A DNA stretch of 64,000 nt, taken from positions 35,516 to 99,515 of the forward strand of contig SCVA01000046.1 in assembly GCA_004297005.1 (NCBI GenBank), written 5' to 3'. Below, piece after piece: positions 56,747 to 63,636 of this stretch (the first letter of the stretch is position 1; each line of letters opens with the position of its first letter). This stretch comes from Nevskiaceae bacterium. GTDB lineage: Bacteria; Pseudomonadota; Gammaproteobacteria; Nevskiales; Nevskiaceae. The notes under the pieces are model-generated. The model made no database searches. It saw nothing but the letters and a program-made list of their open reading frames with translations, and was not told the DNA's origin. Both the position numbers and the translations under genes were made by a program.

Positions 56747-58080
56747 TCGCCGCCTCGTTGCGTAGCGAGGGCTGCCGTGGACACTGGCGGCGGCAGCTCC
56801 GGTAGCCCGTACTGATGCCCTGACTTGGGGTTGAGCGCCTTGGCCAGACGCGCCTGCTCGCGCGCCTCGGCCAACTCGCCGTTGGCGGCGGCGGCGCGGG
56901 CGGCGGTGGCGTGCAGCTCGGCGCTGCGCCAGCCGCTGTCCAGCGTCTGCCGCAACCAGCGCAGCGCCTCGGCCGGCTGCCCGGCGTTCAGCAGGGCGGC
57001 GGCGAGCTTGATGCTGGCCTCGCCGTTGGGGCGCAGCGCCTGGTTGCGGCGCGCCAGCGCCAGCGCCTCAGCCGGACTGCCGAATTGCAGATAGTGGTCG
57101 AGGCCGTGGCCGTAAGTGGCCTCCGGCAGCTGCGCCAGCCTTTCCTCGTACAAGGCCCGGGCGCGGGCGATCCAGGGAGCGGCGGCGGCCGCGTCGCCAC
57201 GCTCGCGCAGCAGCCGGGCGCTGGCGTCCATGAACTCGGGGCTGCCGGTGTCGCCGATCACCGCCGCGTATTCCTGCAAGGCCAGCTCGGTCTGGCCCTG
57301 GAGCGCGTGGATCTCGGCGACGTGCTCGCGCGCCAGCCACCAGCCGGGCAGCAGGCGCAGGGCGTGCTGGTAATGCGCCAGCGCCAGATCCCAGCGGCCG
57401 CGGTGCAGCGCCAGCAGGCCGCGTTGCAGCGCCAGCCAGGCACGCGGATGCGGGGAGTCGCCATGGTCGATGCGTTCGGCACGGTCCATCAGCGCCAGGG
57501 CCTCGCTGAGATGCCCCATATGGCCCTGCCAGAGCGCCAGCCGCACCAGGCCCTGGACGTCTTCGCGCAACTCCAGCGCGGCGCGATAGCCGGTGAGCGC
57601 CGCCGGGTAGTCACCGCGCTGGAAGGCGAGATCGGCGCGCAGGCCGAGGATTGCGGCGCGGTCGGGATTGCTCTCGCGCTCGGCGGCATCGAGATCGGCG
57701 GCGACCCGGTCCAGCCGGTGCACGGTGTAGTTGTAGCGGGCGCGCGCCAGGAAGGGGCCGCTGCCGGCGCCGGCCAGATCGAAGGCCTGTTGCAGCGACT
57801 GCTCCGCGGCGGTGTAGAGCCGGTAGTCGCCGCTGAGCTGCGCCAGCGCCAGCTGCGCGCGTGCCAGGGTCTCCCACTGCGGCCAGGCGACCGGCCCCCG
57901 CGCTAGGGCGGCGCGCGCCTCGCTGACCGCGGCCTCGCTGCGCCGCCGCTCGTCGTCATAACTCCAGGCCGGCGCCGGCTCGCTTGCGGCGCCGGCCACG
58001 GGGGCGACCGGTGCCGATGGCTGGCAGCCGGACAAGCCCAGCGCCAGAGCGGCGCCGAGCAGTAGCCGGGCCGGGTTCAC
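56743..58080 (-). CDS. TPR-repeat lipoprotein
   Basis: GTG start giving VNPARLLLGAALALGLSGCQPS (lipobox LSGC) then repeated TPR helices; GTGA overlap with upstream gene. Confidence 0.82.
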   Translation of the reverse strand: MNPARLLLGAALALGLSGCQPSAPVAPVAGAASEPAPAWSYDDERRRSEAAVSEARAALARGPVAWPQWETLARAQLALAQLSGDYRLYTAAEQSLQQAFDLAGAGSGPFLARARYNYTVHRLDRVAADLDAAERESNPDRAAILGLRADLAFQRGDYPAALTGYRAALELREDVQGLVRLALWQGHMGHLSEALALMDRAERIDHGDSPHPRAWLALQRGLLALHRGRWDLALAHYQHALRLLPGWWLAREHVAEIHALQGQTELALQEYAAVIGDTGSPEFMDASARLLRERGDAAAAAPWIARARALYEERLAQLPEATYGHGLDHYLQFGSPAEALALARRNQALRPNGEASIKLAAALLNAGQPAEALRWLRQTLDSGWRSAELHATAARAAAANGELAEAREQARLAKALNPKSGHQYGLPELPPPVSTAALATQRGGE

Positions 58081-58715
58081 GGTGGCGGATGCGGCGCTGC
58101 CAGATACGGGAACTGCGCCAGGAACGGCGACTCGTTGCGGGTCGGGTTGTTGGGCAGGTTCTCGAAAGCGCGGACATCGCAGGGATGGCCGTAGCAATCA
58201 CCCGGCGTGGTGGTGTCGGCCAACGCCATCGACAGGATGCGGTCGACGGTGACGTCCTCGAAGCGGCGGCCGTTGGGGAAGCCGTCGGGCTGCGCGAGAT
58301 CGAGCTGCAAGGTGTCGGGGATGATCTTGTTCACCACCTGGCGCGCGCAGACATCCAGCGCGCAAGGGGTGATGCCCTTGGCGATCAGCGCGTCGTCGAG
58401 GCCGATGTGCAGCTCTTCCAGACGCTCCAGCATCAGCGAGGAAAAGTCGCCGTCCTCGGAGGGATCAGTGCCATTGAAGTGGTCCTTGTCCTCGGTGTGC
58501 AGCAGCACCGTTGCGACTACCGGCTGACCCATGCGATCGACCCGGGCGTAGGCGGAGCGGGGCTGGGTCGAGAAGCTGAAATCGCCACTGCTGCCGCCAC
58601 CGCTGCTGGCGCCGCCGGAGCTGCCACCGGTGCCGCCATCGCCGCCACCACCACCGCAGGCGGCGAGCAGGCAGGCGGCCAGCAGGCCGCCGGTGAATCC
58701 GGGCTGGATCTTCAT
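58077..58715 (-). CDS. DUF4331-like lipoprotein with Gly/Ser-rich linker
   Basis: Lipobox [28 protein letters not shown] linker, then RMGQPVVATVLLHTEDKDHFNGTDPSEDG typical of the DUF4331 C-terminal part. Confidence 0.75.
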   Translation of the reverse strand: MKIQPGFTGGLLAACLLAACGGGGGDGGTGGSSGGASSGGGSSGDFSFSTQPRSAYARVDRMGQPVVATVLLHTEDKDHFNGTDPSEDGDFSSLMLERLEELHIGLDDALIAKGITPCALDVCARQVVNKIIPDTLQLDLAQPDGFPNGRRFEDVTVDRILSMALADTTTPGDCYGHPCDVRAFENLPNNPTRNESPFLAQFPYLAAPHPPP

Positions 58716-59395
58716 GGGCTGCTCCCGACCAGACGATTGGCAGTGGCCCAGACTCGCACCAGCTTACCCGGCTCGGGCACCACCAGGGTCGGGTCCATCT
58801 CGAAGACGATGGCGGTGAGATTGCGGAAAGCGAAAGAGTCGCGGGCGTTGTCGAACATCAGCGTGCCCTTGGGCTTGTCGCTGGAGTTGAAGCTGGCGAG
58901 CGTGGCGGTGAAGCCGACGAAGTCGAAGAAGAAGGGGTCGTCGCGCAGACCGGTGTAGACACGCAGGCCGCTGGGCGCGCTGATGACTTTCTCCACCGGC
59001 CCGGAGACGAACTTGGCCCCGGCCCCCGGCAGGTTCTCAAACTGCACGCCGGCCTCGCCCTTGGCGTTGCGGCCGTAGCGGATCAGGATCTCGTGCTCGG
59101 GCTGGGTGTCGCCGTTGAGGTCGATCTCGTAGCTGAACAGCACGTTCGGGTCGTAGCGGCCGGTGGGGCCGTCCACCCGCGCGCGTGGCACCGGCACGCC
59201 GCCGAAGCAGATCGCGCCGACCAGGCGCCCACCCTCGCGAAACACGAAGACATCGGTGATGTCGGCCGAGGGATCGAGTGTCGAGCTGGGCGCGTCGGCA
59301 TGATCCGCGGCCCAGCTCCAACAGGGAGCGAGTGACAGTGCCAGCACTGCCATGATGCGTCGTCGAGACTGCTGCTTGCTCATGCTGTCCCCCAT
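58712..59395 (-). CDS. DUF4331 family protein
   Basis: Signal peptide; ADHADAPSSTLDPSADITDVFVFREGGRLVGAICFGG; ATGA overlap with next gene. Confidence 0.85.
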   Translation of the reverse strand: MGDSMSKQQSRRRIMAVLALSLAPCWSWAADHADAPSSTLDPSADITDVFVFREGGRLVGAICFGGVPVPRARVDGPTGRYDPNVLFSYEIDLNGDTQPEHEILIRYGRNAKGEAGVQFENLPGAGAKFVSGPVEKVISAPSGLRVYTGLRDDPFFFDFVGFTATLASFNSSDKPKGTLMFDNARDSFAFRNLTAIVFEMDPTLVVPEPGKLVRVWATANRLVGSSP

Positions 59396-59415: not shown

Positions 59416-62400
59416 TTAGTGCTCTGGCTCGTCGCTGACGAACCAGGGTTTGCCGTCTGCATCCAAGAATAGGCGCTCCATCTCGGCGCGGGTGAAGGGT
59501 CGCGAGCCGATTCGGCCGAAAACCGCGATCTGGTTCCCGGTTTCATCGACAGCGCGGTCGCGATCCAGGCCCTTGCTCAGCGCCAGCAGCGGCTGTTCGC
59601 TGGGCCAGGTCGCAATCCACTGCGGCTTGGGCTCGGGCGAAAAGCCGTAGAACTTCGGCTGCGTGTCCGGCGCGGTCAGTTGCAGCACTTGCAGGCCGCT
59701 GACGTCGGCGACATAGGCAAACAGGCTGGCATTGGTGGTGCCGATCACCACGTCGTTGGCGCCGCGCAGGCGGCCCTCGGCGGTGGTGCGCTGCTCGATG
59801 CGCGGCTGCTCGGGGTTCTGCACGTCGGCGATCACCAGGCCCTCGGCGCCGGCGGCGATGTAGGCATAGGTGCGGGCGAGGTAGACGCGGCGCGCGTCGG
59901 CGAGCGGCAGCAGCGCCACCGGCACCGGCTGCGCCGGCCGGCTGAGGTCGAACACTTCCAGTCCGCGCGCGCTGATGACAAAGGCGTAGCGGAACTGCAC
60001 GGCCACACCGCGGCCGTCTTCCAGCGGCAGCACGCTCTCCAGCTTCGGCTGCAAGGGCTGATCGAGATCGAGCGTGACCAGGCCGGCGTCGGCGATCAGG
60101 TAGACGCGCGAGCCGGCGATGGCCAGATGCCGCGCGCCCTTGAGCACGCCGTTGGCGTTCCAGGTCAGCGCGCGTTTCAAGAAGTTGTTGCGCGGCTCGC
60201 CGTCCTGCAGGGTATCGACGTCGACCAGGATCAGGCCCTCGACCGCGTCCGCCACCAGCGCGTAGTGGTAGATCGGGTGCATGGGCTGTTCGAGATTGTC
60301 CTCGCGTGCCTGGGCGGTAGCGTTGCGCCAGGGCGCGATCGGCTGGTTGGTGGGCAGGGCCACGCAGCGGGCGTCGGCGCTCTCGACGCGGATGTCCTGG
60401 CCCAAGGGCGAGAACGGCGCCGAGATCAGCTTCTGCGAAAAGCCCTTGTTGGCGATGCTCGCCGCGTCGTAGGCGCGCAGTCCCTTGCGGCCCTCGGCGG
60501 CGTAGAGGTACTCGCCGCGCAGTTGCAGACAGCGCACCGGCTCGCCACTGCCGTTGCGCTGCGCGTTGCCGAGCTTGCCGCCGCGTTCCTGGTGGGCGCG
60601 GTACCAGTCCGGGTAGGCGTAGCGGTGCAGATAGCTTCCGATCACCGCCTGCGGCTCGTCCCATTCGGTGACCTGCACGGCGGCGATGCCGGCGCTGCTG
60701 CCGGCCCAGGCATTGAAGCCGACGAAGTTGACGAAGTTGGTTCCCAGGCCCAGCAGCGAGGCCATCCAGGCGTTGTTGTCCCTGGCTTCGGAGAGATGGC
60801 AGTCGCTGCAAGTCTTGGTTTCGGTGGTGCGCTCGGTGTGCGGGTAGTGCGGCGCGAAAGCCTGGCTGGAATAGCCGCCGGCCGATACCGGCGGCTGCTG
60901 GATGTAGATGCGCTCGCGGTTGCTGTTGGTGGACGACAGCACCAGCGCCGAGGAGGAGCGCACCGGCGCGATGCGGTTGCCCTTCACCTCGCCGTGCTTG
61001 CCGAGCATGAAGAAATCGTCGCGCGCCACCTGCGGGTTGTAGGTGGCGTAGTTGCGCGACTCGCCGCCCTCGAAGTGCTGGCGCTCGCTCTTCCAGTTGG
61101 CCTGGATCGGCAGATGGCAGCCGAAGCAGGAGGTGGTCCAGGAGCTGTGGCAGCTGATGCACATCAGCTCGTCGTCCTGGTGCGCTCGCTCGCCTTCCTT
61201 GACGTCGGTCCCCCAGCTGAACTTCTGGGTGTCCCGCGCCATCAGCTTGGCGCGCGCCGCCTTGGCGTTGTAGCGCGGATGGCCGGGAGTGACCGTGTCC
61301 TTCACCAGATGGATTTCCCATTCCAGGCCGGGGGTGACGCTGCTGCGCTGGATCAGGCGCTTGCGCTCGCCGTTCTCGCAGCCGTCCTTGGCGAGACCCA
61401 TTTCTCCGCGATGAGCCCCGGCCCGGCCATCCATGGCCGGGCGTTCGGAGTCGTTGCGAGCCGTGCTCGCAAAGCACGACTCCTTCACCCATTGGAATCT
61501 TCGCCGCCCATCCTGCACGCGCGTCAGTGAGAGATCGCTGCCGCCTGCTGGTGCGGCCGGGCCGGAAGTGCGCAGCAGCGGATAGCGGTCGGCGGTGCCG
61601 TGGCAGTCCTGGCACTCGATCTCGATGGCCTGCGCGACTTCGCCCTGGATGTGGCCGGTGCCGTGCACGTCCTGCGAGAAGTGGCAGTCCACGCACTGCA
61701 TGCCCTTGTCGACATGGATGCTGGAGAGATGCACCGCCTTCTTGAACTTCTGCGGATCGTCGTCGGCCACCTGGCCGCCCTTGGCGTCGAGCAGGTTGCC
61801 CTTCTTGTCGCGCTTGTAGACGGCGCGGAAGTTCCAGCCGTGGCCGTGGTAGTCGGCAAACTGCGTGTCCTTCATCTCCGGGTTCTTGTCCCAGACGCCC
61901 TTGAGGAAGTCCGGATCGCTCCACAGCCCGCGGGTCGCGGCTTCTTCCGGGTTGCGCTGGTTGATGGCACGGATCTCGGCATCGCTGGGGTAGCGCTGCT
62001 GCTCCGGCCACATGCGCGGCGCGTCGGCCTCGTAGTCCCACATGGTGTAGCCGAGCATGGAGTTCATGAACATGTTCGGCTGGTGCATGTGGCAGACCAT
62101 GCACTGCGCGGTGGGGATCGCGCGGGTGAAGGCGTGCTGCAGGGGATGCCCCGGCTCGTTGCGGGGAATCGTCGGGTCTTTGCTCTGGCTGGTGCCGGAG
62201 TGTCCGAACTTCGCATAGGGGCCGGAGTGGCGCGGGTCGCGGTCGTTGGCATAGACCACATGGCAGGCGGTACAGCCGGAGCTGCGGTAGTCGCCCGGCT
62301 GATCGTTGGTGCCCAGGAACCACAGCAGCGGATCGTTGAGGCGGGTCTTGTGCAGGTTGAGCAGCGGCACCGCGATGCGGTTGCCGGTGCCAGGCCCGCG

Positions 62401-63636
62401 ATTGGACTGCTTGAGGTCGGGGCGGCCGGGTTCTTCCAGGCGCTGGATCAGGCCCAGGGCATTGGGCAGGCCGGTTTCCGGGAAGATCGAATTGATGTTG
62501 CGACCGCCGCGTTCGAACACCCGGAACACGTCGGCGGGCGGCGTCACTTCCCAGGCCGGCAGCGGGTAGAGCGTTTCGATCACGCCCTTGCGGCGCATGT
62601 TCTCGTCCACCGGCACCGGGTTGTGGATGGCGGCGGGCAGGTGGCTCAGCAAAGGATCGGGCGCCGGTCCGCCGGCGGCCTTGAAGGCACGGTCCAGCAA
62701 CTCGGACTTCAGCGGCAGCGGCGTCTCGTCGGGGAAGGCGCGTGGCGCATTTGCCGGGGCGTAGCTCTCACCGGTGACCGAGCGCTTGAACGGCAGGATG
62801 CCGTTGTTGTACGCCGCGCCCTCCCAGAACATCGCCGCCGTTGCCATCAGGCTGCGGCGGCTGGCTTCGATGAGCGGCTGGTGGCAGGCGCCGCAGGCGA
62901 GATCGGCGACCCGGTAGTCGCCGGGATTGACGAAGCGGATGAACTCCGGCGATTCGCGGTTGAGCAGGGTGTAGCTGGACTGCGGATTGGCGCTGCTGGT
63001 CCAGGACGCCGGCCACAGCGGCAGCACGTGCGCGGCATTGAGGGCGTCGGCATAGGCGAGTTCCGCGCGGCTGCTGCCGGTTGGTGGCCGGATGCTGGCA
63101 TTGCCGCCGTGGCAGTCGGTGCAGCCCAGCACCACCGCCGGGTTGGCGTGCATGGACAGCCGGTCGGTGTCGCTATGGCAGCTGCGGCAGCCGGCGGATT
63201 TGGCCTCGGCTTCGGCGGGACTTTGGCTGCTGGGGGAGGCGGGGGTGGTGGTGTAGTTGCGGGGCTCGGGATGGGGGCTGGTTGCGGCGAGGCTGGGGTG
63301 GGGGAAGAGCAGGGCGAGGATGACAGCCAAGCTGCCAGCCAGGATGTTCCCCTTCCCCTTGCGGGGAGGGGTTAGGGGAGGGGAAAAGCCGTGGCGGAGC
63401 GCTGTGTTTTCGCCTTGGTCTGCGTGTGTGTGGTTCGCGCGTTCGCGCTCTGTTTTGTGTGTGCTGTCTGAGGTCTTTTTTTCGCCTCTTGGCGACTCAC
63501 TTTTCTTTGCTCCTGCAAAGAAAAGTAAGCAAAAGAAAGCAGGCCCCTGCGTAGCGCCCCCTTTGGGGGTAAACCTGCGATGCTCGGCCCAAAGGGGCCG
63601 CTCGCGAACTCGGCGCCCTATAGGCGCCTCAGACAT
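59416..63636 (-). CDS. Large decaheme c-type cytochrome with C-terminal LVIVD-like beta-propeller repeats; true start uncertain, probably near 63330-63350
   Basis: Ten CxxCH motifs (CRSCH, CTDCH, CGACH, CTACH, CMVCH, CVDCH, CQDCH, CISCH, CFGCH, CSDCH); signal-like ILAGSLAVILALLFPHPSLAA; C-terminal repeats such as LVTLDLDQPLQP, LEVFDLSRPAQP, LVIADVQNPEQP, LQVLQL. Confidence 0.88.
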   Translation of the reverse strand: MSEAPIGRRVRERPLWAEHRRFTPKGGATQGPAFFCLLFFAGAKKSESPRGEKKTSDSTHKTERERANHTHADQGENTALRHGFSPPLTPPRKGKGNILAGSLAVILALLFPHPSLAATSPHPEPRNYTTTPASPSSQSPAEAEAKSAGCRSCHSDTDRLSMHANPAVVLGCTDCHGGNASIRPPTGSSRAELAYADALNAAHVLPLWPASWTSSANPQSSYTLLNRESPEFIRFVNPGDYRVADLACGACHQPLIEASRRSLMATAAMFWEGAAYNNGILPFKRSVTGESYAPANAPRAFPDETPLPLKSELLDRAFKAAGGPAPDPLLSHLPAAIHNPVPVDENMRRKGVIETLYPLPAWEVTPPADVFRVFERGGRNINSIFPETGLPNALGLIQRLEEPGRPDLKQSNRGPGTGNRIAVPLLNLHKTRLNDPLLWFLGTNDQPGDYRSSGCTACHVVYANDRDPRHSGPYAKFGHSGTSQSKDPTIPRNEPGHPLQHAFTRAIPTAQCMVCHMHQPNMFMNSMLGYTMWDYEADAPRMWPEQQRYPSDAEIRAINQRNPEEAATRGLWSDPDFLKGVWDKNPEMKDTQFADYHGHGWNFRAVYKRDKKGNLLDAKGGQVADDDPQKFKKAVHLSSIHVDKGMQCVDCHFSQDVHGTGHIQGEVAQAIEIECQDCHGTADRYPLLRTSGPAAPAGGSDLSLTRVQDGRRRFQWVKESCFASTARNDSERPAMDGRAGAHRGEMGLAKDGCENGERKRLIQRSSVTPGLEWEIHLVKDTVTPGHPRYNAKAARAKLMARDTQKFSWGTDVKEGERAHQDDELMCISCHSSWTTSCFGCHLPIQANWKSERQHFEGGESRNYATYNPQVARDDFFMLGKHGEVKGNRIAPVRSSSALVLSSTNSNRERIYIQQPPVSAGGYSSQAFAPHYPHTERTTETKTCSDCHLSEARDNNAWMASLLGLGTNFVNFVGFNAWAGSSAGIAAVQVTEWDEPQAVIGSYLHRYAYPDWYRAHQERGGKLGNAQRNGSGEPVRCLQLRGEYLYAAEGRKGLRAYDAASIANKGFSQKLISAPFSPLGQDIRVESADARCVALPTNQPIAPWRNATAQAREDNLEQPMHPIYHYALVADAVEGLILVDVDTLQDGEPRNNFLKRALTWNANGVLKGARHLAIAGSRVYLIADAGLVTLDLDQPLQPKLESVLPLEDGRGVAVQFRYAFVISARGLEVFDLSRPAQPVPVALLPLADARRVYLARTYAYIAAGAEGLVIADVQNPEQPRIEQRTTAEGRLRGANDVVIGTTNASLFAYVADVSGLQVLQLTAPDTQPKFYGFSPEPKPQWIATWPSEQPLLALSKGLDRDRAVDETGNQIAVFGRIGSRPFTRAEMERLFLDADGKPWFVSDEPEH
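61421..61483. repeat. Bipartite palindromic element, copy 2 (inside cytochrome ORF)
   Basis: GCCCGGCCATccATGGCCGGGC, spacer GTTC, then GGAGTCGT-TGCGAGccgtgCTCGCA-aagc-ACGACTCC; identical 17-nt core to copy 1. Confidence 0.75.
63347..63385. repeat. CCCCTTCCCC/GGGGAGGGG palindromic repeat, same class as 6083-6169
   Basis: gttCCCCTTCCCCttgcGGGGAGGGGttaGGGGAGGGGaa. Confidence 0.65.

Follow-up and report, generated by a model that had tools for sequence, protein, structure and literature searches.

A dispersed hairpin-forming repeat lies in frame within a multiheme cytochrome gene of a Nevskiaceae bacterium and its sister species

The cytochrome gene and its insert

The window analyzed here, a stretch of 64,000 nucleotides from a Nevskiaceae bacterium, carries an uninterrupted minus-strand ORF for a multiheme c-type cytochrome, to which ExtM-type cytochromes are only distantly related. 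An LVIVD repeat occupies its C-terminal part (59416–60700, minus strand). Residues 1 to about 95 (MSEAPIGRRVRERPLWAEHRRFTPKGGATQGPAFFCLLFFAGAKKSE..., 63340–63636, minus strand) correspond to a separate dispersed repeat, which recurs many times both in this genome and in that of the sister species introduced below (G004). These first ~95 codons are probably non-coding, with the true start probably near a hydrophobic, signal-like stretch around residues 95–118. Two adjoining minus-strand ORFs (58077–58715 and 58712–59395) match consecutive parts of DUF4331 (profile positions 249–291 and 155–236) and are possibly one gene split by a frameshift. The features of the cytochrome insert are as follows.

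59416–63636, minus strand: host ORF, 1406 aa, uninterrupted, multiheme c-type cytochrome
61489–61491, minus strand: left junction, host codon TGG (Trp716), whose GG is the target dinucleotide; the element starts GTGA
61381–61488, minus strand: the palindromic element proper, probably mobile (GTGAAGG...GCCAAGGACGGC), 108 nt or 36 codons, delimited by covariance-model match and by copy and ortholog alignments; encodes residues 717–752, VKESCFASTARNDSERPAMDGRAGAHRGEMGLAKDG
61447–61483, minus strand: hairpin 1, variable in sequence with a covarying stem, GGAGTCGT...TGCGAGCACGGCTCGCA-ACGACTCC (from the fold)
61421–61442, minus strand: hairpin 2, conserved core GCCCGGCCATGGATGGCCGGGC
61381–61394, minus strand: region of the conserved 3' end motif, TCGCCAAGGACGGC (family consensus GCGCCAGGGATGGC; from copy alignments)
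61357–61380, minus strand: right-hand tail, 24 nt, residues CENGERKR, unlike the element consensus (from ortholog alignment)

With slashes marking the boundaries, the coding (minus) strand reads TTC CAA TGG / GTG AAG GAG TCG TGC ... on the left side and ... GCC AAG GAC GGC / TGC GAG AAC GGC GAG CGC AAG CGC / CTG ATC CAG on the right. The peptide stretches tied to the insert are VQESCVASTARK and KDGCENGER. A covariance model of the repeat (R1) gave a single full-length match in the window, at 61381–61490 on the minus strand including the two target G's, with a score of 106.9 bits to be read in light of the window copy having belonged to the training set. Compared with dinucleotide shuffles, the fold of the segment is better by 4.1 s.d.

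A sequence-only reading of this DNA had described two palindromes within the ORF. Both are present (61421–61442 and 61447–61483), in one uninterrupted minus-strand frame, and the translation given for them is correct. That reading located the right segment, at 61396–61493, but not its extent: because the element ends at 61381, the lower boundary cut off its 3' end. The heptamer ACCCATT, proposed as a target duplication, does occur at 61396–61402 and 61487–61493. We rejected this proposal and attribute the match to coincidence, as the inner copy is internal to the element, within its variable spacer, reads AAACGGGG in the sister species, and is spaced wrongly for the frame. No convincing target duplication was found at the cytochrome copy itself.

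Orthologs with and without the insert

Orthologs of the 1406-residue protein were sought in 61 relatives, of which 27 gave some match, part of these being short or confined to the dispersed N-terminal repeat. Eleven aligned orthologs, three congeners among them, lack exactly 40 residues, so that the region spans 359–360 aa compared with 400 aa in the window and in G004. At the insertion point, these empty orthologs read F-E-W-(I/V/R)xxK-L or similar. The element and its 24-nt tail replaced 12 nt, such that 44 codons stand in place of four ancestral codons (IGGK). The insertion claimed earlier is therefore real, while its size was underestimated, the net gain being 40 residues rather than about 30. 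The net insert amounts to 120 nt, and the cytochrome frame stayed open.

The same insert, in the same frame, is found in G004, which appears to be Stagnimonas aquatica THS-13 (94% identical); three further species of the genus are without it. As had been anticipated, the insertion is limited to the window species and this sister, and no ortholog examined has the residues without the palindromes. At the level of sequence comparison, these data show the insertion to date to the common ancestor of this genome and S. aquatica, and its site to be the loop F-(E/Q)-W-IGGK-L, directly behind the GG of the TGG codon.

Between the window and the sister, the insert differs by few substitutions and no indels: six nonsynonymous and one synonymous codon changes, against 18 nonsynonymous and 53 synonymous over the ~400 flanking codons (Fisher P = 0.003). 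As judged from these counts, purifying selection acts on both flanks, and the insert drifts without protein constraint while its frame is kept. We infer that translation continues through the element and that the extra residues form a tolerated loop. An AlphaFold model of residues 561–960 with 13 orthologs, too poor to prove a surface loop (mean pLDDT 35) and not relied on here, hints at the insert being a β-hairpin loop (fragment strands 154–160 and 197–204).

A dispersed family with conserved pairing

BLAST with the 98 bases of the originally described segment returned many partial copies in the same genome, with E values down to 1e-12. Together with the orthologs that lack the segment, these copies bear out the earlier proposal of a lineage-limited coding insertion of a mobile or REP-like palindromic element. 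The covariance model found at least 22 copies in this genome and matches in 64 of the 100 genomes searched; all copy numbers are lower bounds, at most 38 candidates having been scored per genome. The repeat is one of Nevskiaceae, Lysobacteraceae and a number of further gammaproteobacteria. Carriers named in the scan are Stagnimonas, Solimonas, Sinimarinibacterium, Stenotrophobium, Luteimonas, Lysobacter, Pseudoxanthomonas, two Pseudomonas, and MAGs labelled Lysobacteraceae, Thiotrichales and Porticoccaceae.

The family unit measures about 107–117 nt, the cytochrome copy (108 nt) being one base above the common 107. Its layout is GG/GTGA, a variable hairpin, GAAC, GCCCGGCCATGGATGGCCGGGC, about 19 nt and GCGCCAGGGATGGC; aligned copies (alignments of 14 and 103) read GGGTGAG(C/G), the variable hairpin, GAACGCCCGGCCATGGATGGCCGGGCCGGGG, 18 or 19 nt and TCGCGCCAGGGATGGC. 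Among 101 distinct copies, stems are paired in 94.8% of cells, with compensatory double changes in 21 of 26 pairs. The covariation score for these copies is 0.454, compared with 0.100 after shuffling and no more than 0.08 when the structure is slid, in an alignment that was fitted to the structure and favours it. Double compensatory changes affect all 13 stem pairs of hairpin 1, whereas hairpin 2 (97% of cells paired) shows them in six of nine. Hairpin 1 is thus nearly free in sequence with its pairing kept, which implies that the folded single strand matters.

The window copy had no match to Rfam covariance models at E ≤ 1, and an Rfam identity for the element was rejected; one sub-threshold match occurred on the opposite strand in six other loci. 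A search of mainly open-access literature for a prior description of the sequence yielded analogues and no match. The element is apparently a separate, so far undescribed family. Tandem second copies, at spacings of ~90–190 nt, occur at six loci (L003, L005, L007, L083, L136 and L154).

A precise left junction at stop codons

The start GGGTGA is found in 83 of 90 copies, and GTGA is the foot tetranucleotide in the great majority. In 58 of the 90, GGG TGA is entered in frame by an ORF that is 100 codons or longer, compared with 27 and 35 for the other two frames. Judging from these frames, the element's TGA is the predicted stop codon of the upstream gene in most copies, often supplanting a native Gly-stop. 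Relative to relatives without the element, the host gene already ended in Gly-stop in nine of 11 comparable cases (short-chain dehydrogenase, LpxA, DUF484, GlyS, MoaD, PntA, acyl-CoA dehydrogenase, ThiG and SerC, with XerD and GspG as exceptions). The background of Gly-ending ORFs in these loci is roughly 16%, in a sample that itself includes element copies.

Filled and empty gene ends coexist within the genus for CysT, PntA, LpxA, ACAD, ThiG and GlyS. At PntA, the sequence is GGC TAA where the element is absent and GGG TGA where it is present, indicating that the stop arrives with the element and that the target is GG alone. XerD (HHPRG-stop) is filled in Stagnimonas and three Pseudoxanthomonas, and ThiG in Stagnimonas and Luteimonas. 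That GTGA rebuilds a Gly-stop offers a simple, checkable reason why such repeats hug stop codons.

Flanking duplications and a variable right end

Direct repeats of 20–310 bp (84–100% identity) flank eight copies, representing seven independent sites since two of the loci (L015 and L121) are orthologous. All eight repeats end at the GG(G)(T) of the left junction; about 2% of mismatched controls reach the duplication score cut-off. Only ~9% of copies have such flanking duplications, and the median flank similarity of copies equals that of controls. From sequence reading, we take the genes at the duplicated sites to be ddl, pncC, gph, tRNA-Lys, a glycine-riboswitch-like leader, thyA and mltB on the opposite strand. 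The intact gene is the right-hand copy at duplicated sites, and for gph and pncC comparison with empty relatives identifies the left-hand flank as the native upstream region.

The element is separated from the right-hand copy by 2–44 nt of unrelated sequence. A spacer derived from the donor copy's transduced 3' flank was considered and rejected: no donor was convincing, the matches being tandem or orthologous copies. At CysT, ~20 nt of target were lost with no duplication. Taken from these alignments, the left end would be precise and the right end imprecise. The cytochrome copy fits the family rules, with its junction after the GG of TGG, its 24-nt tail and its loss of 12 nt of target.

Two loci can be described individually. 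In L111 (1480–1660), the 5' end of a tRNA-Lys(UUU)-like gene is duplicated and stands ahead of the element, and the complete tRNA restarts ~12 nt past the element. In L099 (1430–1710), a glycine-riboswitch-like leader is interrupted by the element and re-copied downstream of it.

In-frame copies in other proteins

The element lies in frame inside at least four conserved proteins: the cytochrome, RdgB (41 residues where E. coli RdgB has five), an RND efflux pump (41 residues where MdtB has one) and an APH-like kinase, whose insertion is common to two genera at 74% protein identity. It also alters the C-terminus of CysT and of a desaturase-like protein, and makes a nitrogenase-like protein longer. 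The open-frame rate over the three sense frames is 0.66–0.70, compared with 0.61–0.63 for shuffles. We rejected a special coding openness of the element; with openness like that of composition-matched shuffles, it is translatable owing to high GC, not design.

Origin and movement of the insert

We consider it very probable that the insert is a copy of a non-autonomous, hairpin-forming mobile repeat that entered the cytochrome gene in frame by one-ended insertion and is carried as a tolerated loop. In such an event, only the left end would be joined precisely, at GG/GTGA. The right end would be finished by imprecise repair or template switching. The resulting tail would vary, accompanied by either duplication of the upstream target (20–310 bp) or a small target loss. 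Survivors would mainly be insertions sparing the host protein: those at a terminal Gly codon, with Gly-stop rebuilt by the element's GTGA; those in which the gene start is re-copied downstream of the element; and those in which the net insert is in frame, as in the cytochrome.

Other accounts of the cytochrome segment fare poorly. The insert could be a selected functional addition, such as a binding loop with a new Cys, given that both species have retained the frame along with one Cys (VKESC/VQESC) and that the APH-like kinase insertion survives in two genera; the 6:1 ratio of nonsynonymous to synonymous changes, against 18:53 in the flanks, speaks for unconstrained residues and makes this quite improbable. 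A low-quality-looking peptide in a draft genome of 63 contigs might raise suspicion of an assembly error or a pseudogene, which we regard as hardly conceivable. A separately assembled species shares the insertion and its frame, differing by few substitutions and no indels, which renders assembly error very unlikely, and strong purifying selection on either side of the insert opposes decay of the gene. An ancestral segment lost from all other orthologs would demand parallel losses, a bare possibility to which we give next to no credence, as the segment is absent from all other genera aligned and from three congeners and copies of this DNA turn up at unrelated loci.

How the repeat moves is a separate question. 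Tentatively, and as one possibility among several, it may represent a new class of mobile element with a single precise end (GG/GTGA) and a repair-made other end, traveling as a folded single strand of DNA or RNA by unrecognized machinery. If so, duplication of the upstream target would let mid-gene entry leave an intact copy downstream, and Gly-ending genes would be capped with the element's own stop codon. Rather unlikely, in our estimate, is an ordinary REP moved in trans by a RAYT (Y1 HUH transposase), with a GTGA foot in place of GTAG and a dinucleotide cut. The conserved foot tetranucleotide, GG junction, single-strand structure, gene-end location and foot-supplied stop codon all resemble GTAG-REPs (PMC3733652). 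However, no Y1_Tnp (PF01797) match was found in G005, G007 and G024 (at least 23–38 copies) or in G017 (at least 27), and the only Y1-like protein of the present genome has 181 aa and falls below the cut-off. REPs are also not known to carry long, variable duplications. RNA-templated, SINE-like insertion, in which an antisense RNA ending ...CACCC primes on the target GG and is reverse-transcribed, would give a precise left end, a ragged right end and variable duplications. These are the junctions and 20–310 bp duplications observed, and the covariation is strong; we nevertheless judge this route improbable, given no RVT_1 match in G004, G006, G014 and G015 (at least 18–28 copies). Neither Y1 transposase nor reverse transcriptase occurs in every element-rich genome; neither is supported as a necessary partner, and no mobilizing enzyme was found. 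Copies with 100%-identical duplications have best relatives of 78–86% in their own genomes; resident near-identical donors were thus rejected, and simple recent copy-and-paste is not supported. Gene conversion may keep the flanking duplications alike.

Comparison with known systems

Bacterial MITEs (ERIC, NEMIS, YPAL and RUP) are likewise small, non-autonomous and structured, and in-frame fusions of MITEs are known (PMC2229807). Our element differs in its ends, GTGAG... and ...GGATGGC, which are non-complementary; the hairpins are internal, and no terminal inverted repeats pair both ends. There is also no short TA-type target-site duplication flanking both ends, the existing duplications being 20–310 bp. 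The intergenic repeat R178 of Pseudomonas fluorescens (101 bp, internal 11-bp inverted repeat, 9–28 copies per genome; PMC2718517) is, compared by description only, similar in size and copy number, and our element occurs in two Pseudomonas genomes.

GTAG/CGTC REPs and REPINs, mobilized by RAYTs, can supply TAG stops or lie within genes (PMC3733652). Shared features are a hairpin with a foot tetranucleotide, gene-end location, a stop codon in the foot and some intragenic copies. In contrast, the present element has GTGA/TGA for GTAG/TAG, a two-hairpin unit of ~107–117 nt and long flanking duplications. The foot is GTGA, not GTAG or CGTC, in the great majority of copies, and a search for a cognate Y1 (PF01797) transposase found none in several rich genomes (G005, G007, G017 and G024).

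In-frame palindromic insertions are documented best in Rickettsia. Rickettsia palindromic elements (RPEs), among the nearest descriptions in the literature (PMC10969869), are likewise palindromic repeats of ~100–150 nt found in frame in unrelated protein genes and apparently tolerated, and in-frame palindromic insertions in conserved genes recur here at several loci. Compared by description only, the present element differs in its host group, its fixed GG/GTGA left junction, the location of most copies at gene ends rather than inside, and the lack of any special coding adaptation, its frame not being specially open. The parallel with Rickettsia drawn by the sequence-only reading holds as functional analogy and does not establish family membership: by that analogy, the element appears to work like an RPE. 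It would constitute a second family of in-frame palindromic insertions, here in housekeeping proteins of free-living, GC-rich gammaproteobacteria. Orthologs with and without the element exist in a single genus, and S. aquatica is a named, cultured strain. Two old questions become testable in this way: by what route inserted DNA of this kind turns into protein that the host tolerates, and by what means small non-autonomous palindromes spread when no transposase is evident.
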